Positions 3,559 through 24,261 of a stretch of DNA of 64,000 nt are shown here, in pieces. The DNA lies in the NCBI RefSeq assembly GCF_022180385.2, contig NZ_BQME02000001.1:62001-126000 (forward strand). The letters are read 5' to 3'. A program made the position numbers and the translations under genes. A model generated the notes under the pieces. It had not been told where the DNA came from. It searched no databases and saw only the letters and a program-made list of their open reading frames with translations. The stretch is from Paenibacillus sp. L3-i20 (GTDB lineage: Bacteria; Bacillota; Bacilli; Paenibacillales; Paenibacillaceae). Position 1 is the stretch's first letter; each line of letters opens with the position of its first letter.

Positions 3559-4104
3559 TTATTTAGCTGCAAGCTCGCTTTCTGACACCCATTTGTGATT
3601 GGTCACTTTCTCCCCGCCTGTTGTTGGCGTGTAATCAACCATATAGATTGTCGTTTGTTCGGCAGTATCAATAATCGCAACTGCATCTTTCATTCCAGGC
3701 ATATGGTCAGCGTCTATCACAACTTCTGCTCCTGGTTTATACGGCTCATTGCTTCCACTTTTGATTTCTTCGTGGATAATCCACTTATGATTCGTTACAC
3801 GATCCCCGCCTGTAGTAGGTGTATATGAAATAGCATAAACAGTAGTAGCATATGCTCCTACGATCGTCGCTTCTGCCCCATTCATTCCATGCATATGATC
3901 TGATTTTATCGTTGCTTTACTGCCGACTGGGTATAGTGGATTTTTTGCTGCTTCAAGAGTTTCCGGAACTTCACCAGAGCTGGAATGTGATCCGTGATCC
4001 ATTCCACCCATGTTGCCTTCAACTTTTTCTCCATTAGATTCTTTACCGCAACCACTCAATACTAATGCAGCTGCTATACCAAAAATAATTATCTTTTTTT
4101 TCAT
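3559..4104 (-). CDS. YdhK-like lipoprotein with two DUF1541 domains
   Basis: 181 residues. A lipoprotein signal (about 1-19) ends in LSGC, followed by a linker rich in His, Met and Gly. Two homologous repeats follow (about 60-115 and 122-178), each with a DHMxGM motif and a TPTTGG-x-x-VTNHKW ending. The duplicated architecture is that of B. subtilis YdhK. The paired His/Met motifs could bind a soft metal such as copper; that is inference, supported only by the copC-copD neighbours. The start at 4104 (ATG) follows GGAGTGG; a TTG one codon earlier is also open. It lies downstream of the blaI-M56 pair, about 45 bases away, probably in the same transcript. Confidence 0.82.
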   Translation of the reverse strand: MKKKIIIFGIAAALVLSGCGKESNGEKVEGNMGGMDHGSHSSSGEVPETLEAAKNPLYPVGSKATIKSDHMHGMNGAEATIVGAYATTVYAISYTPTTGGDRVTNHKWIIHEEIKSGSNEPYKPGAEVVIDADHMPGMKDAVAIIDTAEQTTIYMVDYTPTTGGEKVTNHKWVSESELAAK

Positions 4105-4150
4105 CAATTATCCACTCCATTTTGTTGTATGTACTTTCTCCGTGCATTTA

Positions 4151-5029
4151 TTATAGAATCGTATGCATCAATACCTCACTGCTCAAACAGCTAATAAACA
4201 AGCCGATATTAAGACTCCATACAATGATAGAAACCGATACCGATCGCGGCTGAAATACCGAAAATCGTATTTCTTCATCAGGCTCAAGTATTTGCTGAAT
4301 GCGGTAATTGTTAGTAGCTTCTGTAAATCCACTAACAAAATAGGAGGATCTCTCTTTTACATTTAGTTTTGCCAATTTTAAAATTGCAAACCCCAAGGGT
4401 TCGCTAGACTTCATCATTTCTATAGCAAATCGATCTGCTAATAACTCCACCTTAGTGTGATAATAAGCCGTCAACCTTTTCATTAACGGTACAAAAAAAA
4501 CAAACTCCCCGAACAAATCAACGATTACCTTCTTCAAAGGATCACGCATATTTACATGATGATATTCATGCAGCAAAATCGACTCAAGTTCTTGCTTAGT
4601 GAAATGCTGGATCACTTGTGAAGAGATGATAATGATCGGGCTAAAAAAACCAATCGTTAATGCGACGAAGCTTGGTTCGTTAATGACGACAACCCTATTT
4701 CCGTACAATGAAAATTGTTTGTTAATAGTCGTTGTTAATACATTATCCCTACATGATAACAGCCGATGTTTGAATTGGATCGTACGATAAACACGTAAAC
4801 TGAATGCTGGTATTACTTTCAGAAGAAGCATAACAAAAGCAACGGTGATGCTTGTCCCGATTATGGATTGCTGGCTTGTCATATTACTCATTGTGAGCCA
4901 AGGCAGAGATAAGTTTGTAAAGTGATGCAAAAAAAAGATAACCATTTGAAAAATAATAAACAGACCGCACATAGAGACAACTGCAAAAGCCGCTATCATT
5001 CCGATAGATGGTTTTATTTTTGTTTTCAT
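4151..5029 (-). CDS. M56 (BlaR1-type) membrane metallopeptidase without sensor domain
   Basis: 292 residues. Two N-terminal helices are followed by a cytoplasmic region with HEYHH (HExxH zinc motif) near residue 155, a downstream Glu in ELLADRFA, and further helices at about 170-185 and 265-285. BlaR1/MecR1 proteins cleave their partner repressor when a C-terminal extracellular penicillin-binding domain senses drug. This protein ends right after the last helix, so no such sensor is present. Its start overlaps the stop of the BlaI-type gene by four bases (ATGA), which fits a protease-repressor pair. The signal it responds to is unknown. Confidence 0.85.
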   Translation of the reverse strand: MKTKIKPSIGMIAAFAVVSMCGLFIIFQMVIFFLHHFTNLSLPWLTMSNMTSQQSIIGTSITVAFVMLLLKVIPAFSLRVYRTIQFKHRLLSCRDNVLTTTINKQFSLYGNRVVVINEPSFVALTIGFFSPIIIISSQVIQHFTKQELESILLHEYHHVNMRDPLKKVIVDLFGEFVFFVPLMKRLTAYYHTKVELLADRFAIEMMKSSEPLGFAILKLAKLNVKERSSYFVSGFTEATNNYRIQQILEPDEEIRFSVFQPRSVSVSIIVWSLNIGLFISCLSSEVLMHTIL

Positions 5030-5439
5030 TTTTGTCTACGTTCCCTCGCTTCATTCAGCTTCTTCTCAAGCTGCTCAAGCAATGATGGTTCGATGTCTTC
5101 GATAGCTTCTACAAATTGTGAAACAGCAATGTTACCAAACTCTTGGATTAACCCAGTAGCAACTGCTTTTGTTTGCTCTTCCAAAAACAGTTCTTTTGTT
5201 TGTATCGGCTCAAACAAGCCATTCCTAGCTTTTACTTCTTTGCGCAAATGACCTTTTTCAACTAAACGGTTCATGACCGTCATAACCGTGTTAAACGCAA
5301 CTGACTTTTCCGGCTCTAATCGCGCTTGCACTTCCTTAATCGTGAGCGGCTTAGAATTCCAAAGAACATTCATAATTTTTGCTTCTAATGCCCCAAAAAA
5401 CTGTGTTAAACCTTCTCCATCAGCCTTGTAATTACTCAT
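5026..5439 (-). CDS. BlaI/MecI/CopY family transcriptional repressor
   Basis: 137 residues with the N-terminal winged helix of the family (about 12-80, including LTIKEVQARL and NTVMTVMNRLVEKGHL) and a C-terminal helical dimerisation part. The C-terminus lacks the paired CxC motifs of the copper-sensing CopY branch, so direct copper sensing is unlikely even though copper-type genes are nearby. The start has GGTGGAGGAG upstream. Its promoter sits in a 43-bp perfect palindrome, indicating autoregulation. It is followed by the M56 protease in an overlapping pair. Confidence 0.9.
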   Translation of the reverse strand: MSNYKADGEGLTQFFGALEAKIMNVLWNSKPLTIKEVQARLEPEKSVAFNTVMTVMNRLVEKGHLRKEVKARNGLFEPIQTKELFLEEQTKAVATGLIQEFGNIAVSQFVEAIEDIEPSLLEQLEKKLNEARERRQK

Positions 5440-5448
5440 TCTTTCTCC

Positions 5449-5491
5449 TCCACCTCCATTTCACTACATATTGTAGTGAAATGGAGGTGGA
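5449..5491. promoter_or_regulatory. 43-bp perfect palindrome, probable BlaI-type operator
   Basis: Twenty-base arms (5449-5468 and 5472-5491) pair without mismatch around a 3-base centre. The core CTACA-TAT-TGTAG matches the TACA/TGTA dyad of BlaI/MecI operators. The outer arms repeat CCACCTCCATTT and AAATGGAGGTGG, so one arm contains part of the ribosome-binding site and the other the promoter spacer. The transcription start implied by the -10 box lies inside the palindrome, so it acts mainly as DNA, not as an RNA hairpin. Confidence 0.85.
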
Positions 5492-5498
5492 ATGTCAA
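5470..5498 (-). promoter_or_regulatory. Sigma-A promoter of the blaI-M56-(ydhK) unit
   Basis: On the - strand TTGACA (5493-5498) and TACAAT (5470-5475) are separated by exactly 17 bases. The -10 box is part of the operator core and the spacer is one palindrome arm, so a bound repressor would block polymerase directly. The implied 5' leader is only about 20-25 bases. Confidence 0.85.
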
Positions 5499-5592
5499 AT
5501 TTAGCTTTTTTCCATTTTTTAATCACAAAAAAAACGCCTTATAAAAAGACGCTGTTTGTTTGATACCACTATTGATCTTCATTACTAATCTA

Positions 5593-6120
5593 TTATTGGC
5601 TAACATGATATAAAACATGCTTATAGAGAGGGCTACCCTTCTCAACTTTAGGATGGTTGAATTCATTTACAAACTTCATACCGATTTTTTGCATCACTTT
5701 TTTGGAGGGAGTATTAATATCAGCTGTGAAGCTATAAATATCTTTAAAACCTAATTCACCAAATCCATACTGCAAACAGGCTGCCGCTCCTTCTGTCGCA
5801 TACCCTTTTCCCCAAGCATCCCGCTTCAATCGCCAAGCAATTTCTATGCAAGGTGTAAAATCAGCCGCAAATATTGCCTTATGAAATCCTATAAACCCGA
5901 TATACTCTTTGTTTTCCTTCACTTCCACCGCATACAACCCAAATCCACTGTCTTTGAACTCCGACATAATGGATTGATAAAATGTTTCAGTTTCCTCGAT
6001 AGACAACGTTTTTGGAAAATAAGTCATAACTTCTTCATCTGCATTTAGTTGACTAAATGGCTCTAAATCTCGTTGTTCCCAGTCACGTAATTGCAATCTC
6101 GCCGTTTCTATATAAATCAT
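5593..6120 (-). CDS. GNAT family N-acetyltransferase (RimJ/RimL-like)
   Basis: 175 residues. It has the typical start ETARLQLRDW, the acetyl-CoA-binding stretch around AWGKGYATEGAAACLQYGF and a late segment with NTPSKKVMQKIGMKFV, the pattern of the Acetyltransf_3 subgroup. Substrate cannot be told from sequence. I use the ATG at 6120 because GGAGG lies six bases upstream; the frame stays open to 6159 without a better site. It lies 35 bases downstream of rarA, so co-transcription is likely. Confidence 0.88.
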   Translation of the reverse strand: MIYIETARLQLRDWEQRDLEPFSQLNADEEVMTYFPKTLSIEETETFYQSIMSEFKDSGFGLYAVEVKENKEYIGFIGFHKAIFAADFTPCIEIAWRLKRDAWGKGYATEGAAACLQYGFGELGFKDIYSFTADINTPSKKVMQKIGMKFVNEFNHPKVEKGSPLYKHVLYHVSQ

Positions 6121-6155
6121 TGCACACCTCCGAATAAAGAATTTGGGAACAAACT

Positions 6156-7460
6156 TCACTTCAAGCGTCGCTGTTGATTTTGTTTTATTTTATCCTCCAT
6201 ACCTTGATCGGAAGCTTTATAAAATACTGCCTTAGCAAGTGGATCAGGCAAATATTGCTGCTTCACATAGTGGTTAGGAAAGTCATGTGGATATTGATAT
6301 CCACCATGTCCAAGCTCTGCTGCACCTTTGTAATGTGTATCGCGAAGATGGAGCGGCACTTCTGCATTTCCGCTTCTTTCGATAGCCGACATGACATTGC
6401 CGATTGCAACGGCTGTTGCGTTGGACTTCGGACTCTCAACTGCAAATAAAATCGCTTGTGCAATGTTGTATTTGGCTTCAGGCCAACCGATTTTATGATA
6501 AGCATCCATCGCTGTCACAGCTTGCACCATTGCTTGTGGATTTGCCAATCCAATATCCTCACTGCAAGCAACGATCAGCCTTCTTAGGAAAGTCATTGGG
6601 TCCATCCCAAGTCTTTCTACTGCATACAAAAACCAATACAACGCCGCATCGCTTGAACCTCTCACACTTTTATGAAATGCTGACAGCACATCATATTGTG
6701 TAGACAGATCGGCCCGAATGGATGGCTTTCGAACAGATTCTTGTGCCACTTCTAATGTAATTCTCACAGAACCATCCGGTTCGGAAGGTGTTGTAACTGC
6801 TGCAAGCTCAAGCGCATTTAAAGAACGCCTAATATCTCCGCCAGACATGGCTGCAATATGTTCAAGCGCTTCTTCCTCCACATGCAGCGTCATAAATCCA
6901 AGGCCGCGCTCACGATCCGCAATTGCTCTATTCATAGCGTCAAGCGAATGCTTCTCTTCTAATGCTTCTAGTTGAAATAAAGTGGAGCGGGACAAGAGAG
7001 CGCCATTCACATGATGGAACGGATTTTCCGTTGTAGCGCCGATAAATATTATAATTCCTTGCTCAACAGCTGGAAGCAATGCATCTTGACGGGAGGTGTT
7101 AAAGCGATGTACTTCATCGAGAAATAAAATCGTCTTTTTCCCGTATAAAGTTTTGTTGCTCCGGGCCCGGTCTATTACTTCCCGAACATCCTTAACCGAA
7201 GCCTCAACCGCATTGAGCTTGACGAAATCCCCTTCCGTCTTCATCGAAATGATATGAGCAAGCGTCGTCTTCCCACAACCTGGAGGACCATATAGCAAAA
7301 TGGACGATACTTGGTCCCCTTCAATCGCCCGTCTAAGCAGCTTGCCTTGACCTACAATATGTTCTTGTCCTATATATTCATCGAGCGTCTGCGGGCGCAT
7401 ACGATCCGCCAGCAGGCGCGCTCGAGGCAATTCCTCTTCCTGATAAGTAAACAGATCCAT
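6156..7460 (-). CDS. rarA: Replication-associated recombination protein A (RarA/MgsA)
   Basis: 434 residues. An AAA+ ATPase with Walker A GPPGCGKTT (near 60), Walker B ILFLDEVH, sensor ATTENPFH, and the MgsA-type C-terminal helical tetramerisation region (about 260-430). RarA acts at stalled replication forks and is related to the clamp-loader/RuvB group. The ATG at 7460 lies 12 bases after AAAAGGA; a TTG at 7472 directly abuts that site and is less likely. A 12-bp palindrome ATGGTATACCAT (7483-7494) lies just upstream. The position near tcdA-aspS-hisS recalls yrvN in B. subtilis, here with extra genes in between. Confidence 0.93.
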   Translation of the reverse strand: MDLFTYQEEELPRARLLADRMRPQTLDEYIGQEHIVGQGKLLRRAIEGDQVSSILLYGPPGCGKTTLAHIISMKTEGDFVKLNAVEASVKDVREVIDRARSNKTLYGKKTILFLDEVHRFNTSRQDALLPAVEQGIIIFIGATTENPFHHVNGALLSRSTLFQLEALEEKHSLDAMNRAIADRERGLGFMTLHVEEEALEHIAAMSGGDIRRSLNALELAAVTTPSEPDGSVRITLEVAQESVRKPSIRADLSTQYDVLSAFHKSVRGSSDAALYWFLYAVERLGMDPMTFLRRLIVACSEDIGLANPQAMVQAVTAMDAYHKIGWPEAKYNIAQAILFAVESPKSNATAVAIGNVMSAIERSGNAEVPLHLRDTHYKGAAELGHGGYQYPHDFPNHYVKQQYLPDPLAKAVFYKASDQGMEDKIKQNQQRRLK

Positions 7461-23201: not shown

Positions 23202-23320
23202 AAGGTTTTGCGCAGCAAAACCTACTTCGTAAGCATTATCCTAAGGTTTTGCGCAGCAAAACCTACTTCGTAAGCATTATCCTAAGGTTTTGCACAGCAA
23301 AACCTACTTCGTAAGCATTA
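23202..23320. repeat. Three tandem 41-bp repeats, each with a perfect hairpin
   Basis: Units begin at 23202, 23243 and 23284 with a strict 41-base period. Each contains AGGTTTTGC-GCA-GCAAAACCT (9-bp arms) followed by CTACTTCGTAAGCATTA. Units 1 and 2 are identical where they can be compared; unit 3 has one base changed in the loop (CACA for CGCA). The near identity means recent expansion. The array fills the gap between secF and the CDF-domain gene. Confidence 0.92.
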
Positions 23321-23345
23321 ACGCTACTCCATTATGGAGTAGCGT
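23321..23345. terminator. Perfect hairpin overlapping the secF stop codon
   Basis: ACGCTACTCC (23321-23330) and GGAGTAGCGT (23336-23345) are perfect arms around ATTAT; the loop contains the secF TAA. It directly abuts the 41-bp repeat array. There is no U-run on the - strand, so termination would be weak; it may instead protect the secDF mRNA end. Confidence 0.55.
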
Positions 23346-24261
23346 TTGTAGCAACTTTTGGCTTCGGCTTATGATTACGTTTCAACAAGTACCACAATGG
23401 ACTTGCAATAAAGATCGTGGAGTAAGCTCCACTAAACAAACCGATAAGAAGTGCTAGACAGAACATTTTGATAGATGGACTTCCAAGAAGGAATATACAT
23501 AGCGTTACAATAACAACCGTCAAAACGGTATATAAGTTCCTTGCCATTGTCTGCCAAATACTCGCATTAACCAATTCTGCTAATTGGCTGTGACTTTTAA
23601 TTGACGCAAACCGCTGATTCTCACGAATTCGGTCAAAAATAACGATCTTATCATTGATAGAATATCCAAGTGTTGTTAGCACTGCAGCAATAAAAGGAAG
23701 ATCAACTTCAAAGCGGAAGATCGAGAATACCGCAACTACAACGAAGCTATCATACAAAATAGAAATATTAGCTGCTAATGCAAAACGCCATTCAAAACGA
23801 ACCATCACATAAAGCATAATTCCGAAGCTCGCAACCAATATTGCCCAGATGGTTTTAATGCCTAATTCGCGGGCAATATCAGGTGAAACTACATTTACCT
23901 CTGCAGAAATATCATTTCCAAACTTAGACTTCAATACGTCTAACACTTTATTAGATTGATCTTGATTCAGGACATCGTCAAAACGAATAGATATCCGATC
24001 GTTATCCGTTCCTCCTACAGTATGGGCAGCATTGCCATGACCTGCAGACGTCAACGCTTCAGTTACTTCAGCCTGAGTAATTGATTTACCTACGGATACA
24101 TCCATATTGGAACCCGCTTTAAAATCGACTCCCAAATTCAATTGAAATAACAATAGCGATAAAATACCAGCGATCGTTAGAACGATAGAGAAAGTGAAAA
24201 ATTTGTTGCGATTTCCTACTACATCATATCGAATCTTTGTATTATAGTTCACGAATTTCAC
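23332..24261 (-). CDS. secF: Protein translocase subunit SecF
   Basis: 309 residues. One N-terminal helix, a periplasmic-type domain with GVDFKAGSNMDV, and a C-terminal five-helix bundle with TLGYSINDKIVIFDRIREN. With SecD it uses the proton gradient to drive late export steps through SecYEG. It overlaps the end of secD by 20 bases. B. subtilis has a fused SecDF; here the two are separate. Confidence 0.96.
   Translation of the reverse strand: MKFVNYNTKIRYDVVGNRNKFFTFSIVLTIAGILSLLLFQLNLGVDFKAGSNMDVSVGKSITQAEVTEALTSAGHGNAAHTVGGTDNDRISIRFDDVLNQDQSNKVLDVLKSKFGNDISAEVNVVSPDIARELGIKTIWAILVASFGIMLYVMVRFEWRFALAANISILYDSFVVVAVFSIFRFEVDLPFIAAVLTTLGYSINDKIVIFDRIRENQRFASIKSHSQLAELVNASIWQTMARNLYTVLTVVIVTLCIFLLGSPSIKMFCLALLIGLFSGAYSTIFIASPLWYLLKRNHKPKPKVATNATP

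Follow-up and report, generated by a model that had tools for sequence, protein, structure and literature searches.

Operator symmetry is usually explained by dimer-driven selection of both half-sites, and the BlaI/MecI operators of the bla and mec promoters are TACA-N2-TGTA dyads. Why, then, does the promoter of a blaI-type gene in Paenibacillus sp. L3-i20 overlap a perfect palindrome of 43 bp, whose symmetric part exceeds what a dimer would be expected to read, and how does pairing in such palindromes stay exact while the letters turn over? We addressed this question in a stretch of 64,000 nt (64 kb; the window) and in related promoters.

The palindrome and the genes behind it

The features of the locus are as follows.

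3559..4107, minus strand: gene for a DUF1541 protein (Pfam)
4151..5029, minus strand: gene for an M56 membrane peptidase, 292 aa, with HEYHH (Pfam and sequence)
5026..5439, minus strand: gene for a BlaI/MecI-type repressor (Penicillinase_R), 137 aa, no cysteine (Pfam, NCBIfam and sequence)
5447..5451, minus strand: best-spaced Shine-Dalgarno (SD) sequence GGAGG, 7 nt from the ATG, three of its five bases in the arm (read from sequence)
5449..5461, minus strand: right outer arm, 5' leader carrying GGAGG at 5457-5453 (sequence and comparison with the relative)
5449..5491, minus strand: perfect 43-bp palindrome, 20-nt arms, minus-strand centre ATA (repeat scan, fold and chance estimate)
5462..5478, minus strand: likely operator core CACTACA-ATA-TGTAGTG, 17 bp, the part common to relatives (upstream regions of relatives)
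5470..5475, minus strand: -10 box TACAAT, within the core (promoter scan)
5479..5491, minus strand: left outer arm, in the promoter spacer, mirroring the leader (comparison with the relative)
5493..5498, minus strand: -35 box TTGACA (promoter scan)
5533..5553, minus strand: terminator-like hairpin upstream of the promoter, past a co-directional GNAT-type gene (ORF 5593-6159) (hairpin scan)

The arms (5449-5468 and 5472-5491) are 20 nt each and 100% complementary with 3 nt between them, as an earlier note on this DNA had described, and among perfect inverted repeats with loops of 0-12 nt this palindrome is the longest in the 64 kb, the runner-up having 15-nt arms. Folded as single-stranded DNA it reaches -22.2 kcal/mol (z = -10.7). 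Chance or an assembly artefact is a practically negligible explanation, since arms of at least 20 nt are expected about 8e-7 times in random equal-base sequence and the same palindrome, with one compensated pair, recurs in a second, separately deposited genome.

The minus-strand promoter TTGACA-17-TACAAT (5498-5470) matches the consensus at 11/12 positions with a spacer of 17 nt. The palindrome begins one base past the -35 box, runs across almost all of the spacer together with the -10 box, and has its other end in the leader, where the best-spaced GGAGG (5451-5447) straddles the arm edge and a second GGAGG (5457-5453) lies entirely within the arm; the promoter overlap and the inclusion of part of the SD sequence reported earlier were both confirmed. 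Judging from the usual distance to a -10 box, the 5' end of the mRNA should fall within the right arm, so that the native mRNA would lack the left arm. The dyad centre is TACA-N3-TGTA, with both halves present at a spacing of 3, a base more than in TACA-N2-TGTA as published; with this difference, the BlaI-type operator that had been proposed over the -10 box is borne out. No U-tract of the kind that marks an intrinsic terminator follows the palindrome, and the one hairpin called within 5300-5700 is the separate structure at 5553-5533. The palindrome shares with REP/REPIN-type mobile palindromes that it is perfect and intergenic. Whereas such REP-like repeats come in many copies, a genome-wide search allowing up to 3 mismatches matched the inner 27 bp once, which speaks against this candidate. 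The second contig of the same genome has another site, CTACATATTGTAG, whose core is plain (L003, 1501-1513); a repressor gene that is a paralogue (49% identical) lies to one side of it and other ORFs to the other, and by eye a -35/-10 pair can be read on its minus strand.

The blaI-type assignment of the gene likewise stands: its product scores 83.2 bits against PF03965 (curated cut-off 22.6, E 2.3e-23), and BlaI and MecI are among the solved-structure chains that it matches (six sequences, E 1.6e-5 to 0.008). The M56 protein encoded next to it scores 51.7 bits against PF05569 (cut-off 31) and carries HEYHH at residue 154, which completes the pairing of a Penicillinase_R repressor with an HExxH protease. 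Pfam returned only M56/M48 matches and no penicillin-binding sensor domain in its 292 aa, and its score against blaR1_generic (35.9 bits, cut-off 400) gives no indication of a beta-lactam-sensing BlaR1/MecR1. The locus thus resembles the BlaI/MecI systems in having a TACA/TGTA dyad over the promoter of a Penicillinase_R gene whose partner encodes an M56 protease, and departs from them in its N3 centre, in a dyad that stays perfect to 43 bp, and in a protease partner in which no beta-lactam sensor domain was found. The DUF1541 gene probably belongs to the repressor-protease operon, to judge from spacing and direction.

CopC and CopD genes and the Met/His-rich DUF1541 protein lie near the repressor in the window, and from this neighbourhood copper as the inducing signal is a guess only. 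The cop operator of CopY/CopR is given as RNYKACANNTGTMRNY (PMC7253601); the window site shares its ACA/TGT halves, as the window shares nearby CopC and CopD genes, but differs in its N3 spacing. The repressor itself is not CopY, because it contains no cysteine and hence none of the C-terminal CxC metal-binding motifs; it also scores 35.3 where the NCBIfam equivalog CopY_TcrY has a cut-off of 121.95.

A shared core with rare extensions

Upstream regions of the window's repressor gene and of 80 named relatives, found by protein similarity, were compared (81 regions). Scored with the N3 spacing alone, which fitted the relatives, 79/81 contain a best site that agrees with at least 11 of the 14 positions of CACTACA-N3-TGTAGTG; in four of the 79 this site lies more than 100 nt upstream (L066, L073, L077 and L085), and the two regions below the threshold score 10 (L070) and 9 (L082). 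The central 17 bp is therefore likely the operator, to which the repressor would bind, as its family, the motif and its position suggest. Among the 81 regions, contiguous 20-nt arms and the outer letters are found in the window and in its nearest relative alone, which disposes of an extended operator conserved across the family. It also divides the earlier proposal that the operator arose by inverted duplication of the gene's own leader: inverted copying of the leader accounts well for the left outer arm, but such an origin is not supported for the operator itself, its 17-bp core being common to most of the 80 relatives without these arms.

That nearest relative is L038, Paenibacillus sp. GSMTC-2017 (counted with G009 as one genome; 91% protein identity), which keeps the full palindrome. 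The earlier note would have counted it against its own reading if the outer arms were absent or unconserved in all close relatives; L038 retains them. Beyond L038, the closest relatives that were found have no more than 56% protein identity and are without these letters. Between the window and L038, 29/47 fourfold sites of the repressor gene have changed (62%), whereas from the -35 box through the end of the palindrome one base pair differs, A-T in the window and G-C in L038. It joins position 5482 in the left outer arm to 5458 in the right, both arms having changed together. The left arm is identical at 11/12 positions despite this divergence. Fourfold differences reach 40% or more in 140 promoter pairs, which are not mutually independent; two of these keep at least 11/12 left-arm positions, window/L038 and L063/L104, and in the latter the left arm is kept although it is not palindromic; left-arm conservation in the window's lineage supports constraint as a sign, not as proof. 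This lineage is represented by two genomes and no pre-extension state was found in it, so that here a copying event can only be inferred.

To what extent are such extensions unusual? In a set of 220 non-redundant core sites, taken from 176 loci and the window, 9 have eight or more extra pairs, where swapping left and right arms between sites predicts 0.77, the set being less evenly sampled and including the window and G009 as two of the nine. From the window's order 296 genomes were drawn evenly, its own genome included by design; requiring TTG at the -35 position and a 15-bp core without mismatch gave 55 sites, 54 of them distinct. Of these promoters 51 have 0-2 extra pairs; the other three carry 8, 11 and, in the window, 14, with no intermediates; cross-pairing of arms predicts 0.019 promoters with at least eight. 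Extension is thus all-or-none and rare in the window's order. It is not a growth common to any dyad operator, to judge from one control motif: none of 31 Fur-type boxes (30 loci, among the matches listed) has three or more extra pairs, against 2.07 expected from cross-pairing.

Extended cases in other lineages differ in their letters. L031 has 19-nt arms, the paired centre included; L112 (Priestia abyssalis) has 16-nt arms around a 5-nt centre; L092 (P. alba) has 14-nt arms; and L210 (G871) reads AAAACGCCC...GGGCGTTTT and is terminator-like as well. This last core palindrome, at about 2756-2817, resembles a two-way terminator upstream of a CIACHG haem-type ORF (by eye), and is possibly an operator inside a terminator. 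In L174 (G656), a 15-nt-arm palindrome with the same core (1531-1563) stands at the start of a response-regulator-like ORF, and an ORF resembling BlaI lies in the vicinity (each judged by eye). A scan of 877 kb (176 loci and the window) for perfect inverted repeats with arms of at least 12 nt yielded 49 distinct ones, a count that gives no background rate because the loci were chosen around such operators. Seven were flagged as having a TACA-N2/3-TGTA core, and two more (L112 and L065) carry a slightly imperfect one; 11/49 are terminator-like by a crude rule and the remainder are unclassified. No description of overlong BlaI-type operators was found in the open-access literature searched.

The variation of the outer letters bears on the suggestion, made earlier, that a second repressor dimer sits on the outer arms, which would then form an additional sequence-specific site. 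Four-protomer sites have indeed been proposed for two Clostridium thermocellum BlaI proteins (PMC8457756). Nevertheless, a second dimer on the outer arms is very improbable, because their letters vary between lineages and no second N3-type site occurs near the window promoter at up to 3 mismatches; CopY, moreover, binds a 19-bp operator nearly as well as longer repeats (Kd 37 nM versus 25-55 nM; PMC7253601, Table 1).

Exact pairing at orthologous promoters of another order

In the order of G696, another order of Bacilli, 14/59 genomes (16 matches) have a gene whose product is beta-propeller-like (in L150, PQQ_2 with 41.7 bits, cut-off 27.6), and at the three loci looked at (L150, L151 and L211) it follows a repressor gene and an M56 gene. 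At its promoter, 11/14 genomes have a palindrome with 15-26-nt arms on a BlaI-type core, with a single A-C mismatch in the core of L221 and an unpaired offset 2 in L215 and L219. For G795 and G607 the fetched sequence showed no operator site. In G751 (L225, near 1183) an ordinary U-tailed terminator hairpin with GTGTAG in its loop stands in place of the operator palindrome; one of the two has possibly turned into the other.

The 11 promoters (10 distinct sequences) could be aligned without gaps over 15 pairs. The six outermost pairs changed on both sides in 22 cases and on one side in none, with no mismatch and no wobble, and the nine inner pairs have one G-U beside the centre and two mismatches. 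The covariation score is 0.450 compared with 0.118 in shuffles (0/500 reach the observed value) and at most 0.072 with slid partners; less extreme are the number of pairs with a two-sided change (6 versus 3.7 in shuffles, 14/500 reaching it) and of further pair types (14 versus 9.5, 4/500). At offsets 9-16, 88/88 positions are paired, where shuffles average 57.1 with a maximum of 84 and 0/20,000 reach 88; the 11 promoters are orthologous and related, and L221 and L222 have their arms in common. Pairing is kept in the outer arms, and sequence is not, which points to arm-to-arm copying of DNA by template switching, perhaps together with selection for DNA structure.

A selected RNA stem should tolerate G-U pairs. 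With any G-T just beyond an arm left uncounted (some of the 11 have one, for example at offset 17), 151 of the 152 outer pairs at offsets of 8 or more are Watson-Crick, one is A-C and none is G-T, whereas 96 terminator-like stems of the fetched loci, walked by the same rule, have G-U at 48/565 pairs (8.5%) beyond the inner seven and at 123/1237 overall. Within these limits the comparison favours maintenance at the DNA level, although avoidance of G-U would also be expected of a stem that functions in RNA from either strand. The other extended palindromes (87 outer pairs, no G-T) were partly picked by the perfect-repeat scan and are kept outside the wobble argument.

The absence of wobble weighs against an explanation at the RNA level, by which read-through transcripts would fold and hide the SD region while the native mRNA, starting in the right arm, stays open. 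The folds agree with it, the read-through strand reaching -36.5 kcal/mol and the stretch from near the expected 5' end -1.7 kcal/mol, as does the co-directional GNAT-type gene upstream in the window. The adjoining upstream ORF is divergent in the nearest relative, however, and a terminator-like hairpin already lies upstream of the promoter. Read from the sequences, the SD is within the arm in L224, in L112 and partly in the window, but beyond the arms in L214, L215 and L218, so that hiding it is not the common denominator; together with the lack of wobble pairs, this weakens SD sequestration as a general reason, and insulation of this kind is improbable.

A further possibility, in keeping with the cruciform formation that the earlier note also suggested, is that the palindrome is selected as a DNA structure: a supercoil-driven cruciform would take the -10 box out of duplex DNA, and binding of repressor or polymerase would compete with extrusion, so that pairing matters and letters do not. 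Exact pairing without wobble while letters change is what this predicts, and the 3-nt centre, the stability of the single-stranded fold, the persistence of the palindrome at one orthologous promoter in 11/14 genomes and the arms kept in L038 despite 62% fourfold differences all agree with it. Yet 51/54 operators of the class manage without a long palindrome, and left-arm identity of 11/12 at such divergence, though rare, is matched by a pair that is not palindromic. We consider it unlikely, if less so than the RNA-level one.

Proposed copying between arms

The reading we prefer, which we believe about as much as we doubt it, combines a core operator with arms that were added by inverted copying, are kept matched by template switching and recur on this class of operator. 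The 17-bp core would be an autoregulatory operator at which a bound repressor dimer lies over the -10 box and so switches off the repressor-protease operon, and the outer arms would not be read letter by letter. In the window's lineage the leader may have been copied, inverted, into the promoter spacer, adding outer arms to a pre-existing dyad, most likely by replication template switching primed by that dyad; the same copying, with or without selection for pairing, could keep the arms matched. Repressor binding to the core, the inverted-copy origin and ongoing arm-to-arm correction are all inferred from sequence comparison. In principle the DNA of the long palindrome could also fold into a hairpin or cruciform that places the -10 box close to the tip.

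A single template-switching event can give rise to a perfect stem, and both creating and mending of stems are described by Monttinen and Loytynoja 2022 (PMC8794818), who call the maintenance role less clear than the creation role. The palindromes resemble the stems described there in being perfect and in changing on both sides together, and differ in that those belong to RNA genes and the window's case is a DNA operator in a promoter. Joint changes of the arms without wobble intermediates, as template switching predicts, were found both in the G696 order (22 two-sided and no one-sided change among 10 sequences) and in the compensated pair of the window's lineage. An ancestor with one arm overwritten in a single event could be looked for in two places, the window's lineage, which offers two genomes, and the pair P. 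alba (L092) and P. ferrarius (L081), which differ in both arms: by eye there are five outer-arm differences, three left and two right, and all five positions are paired in P. alba. A single copy event would leave differences in one arm, unlike what is observed, and this comparison, whose direction is not established, may count against an origin in one event. Arm-to-arm copying accommodates the data better than a second dimer or selection of an RNA stem, both of which fit less well.

In the G696-order clade the repressor gene's own promoter is unextended in 4/4 loci (L216, L218, L224 and L228, identified by eye from first codons), while the palindrome at the beta-propeller-like gene is kept in 11/14 genomes. 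Selection may therefore be needed, mutation alone not being obviously site-specific, and this suggests that selection for structure takes part in that order. A fuller version, in which a short dyad seeds template switching and the resulting long, letter-free and exactly paired palindrome is retained for the structure it gives to promoter DNA, is put forward tentatively, as less likely than not.

Recurrent overlong palindromes hint that DNA copying may itself build and keep operator symmetry, and they provide a natural, countable system for testing two ideas: that promoters are shaped by copying from arm to arm, and that so large a palindrome within a promoter can act as a regulatory DNA structure.

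Elsewhere in the window, three direct repeats with a period of 41 bp (23202-23346, with TACTTCGTAAGCATTA at 23223, 23264 and 23305) lie directly 3' of a secF-like ORF (by eye), and a perfect 27-bp palindrome, AACGCTACTCCATTATGGAGTAGCGTT, adjoins them and overlaps the end of that ORF.
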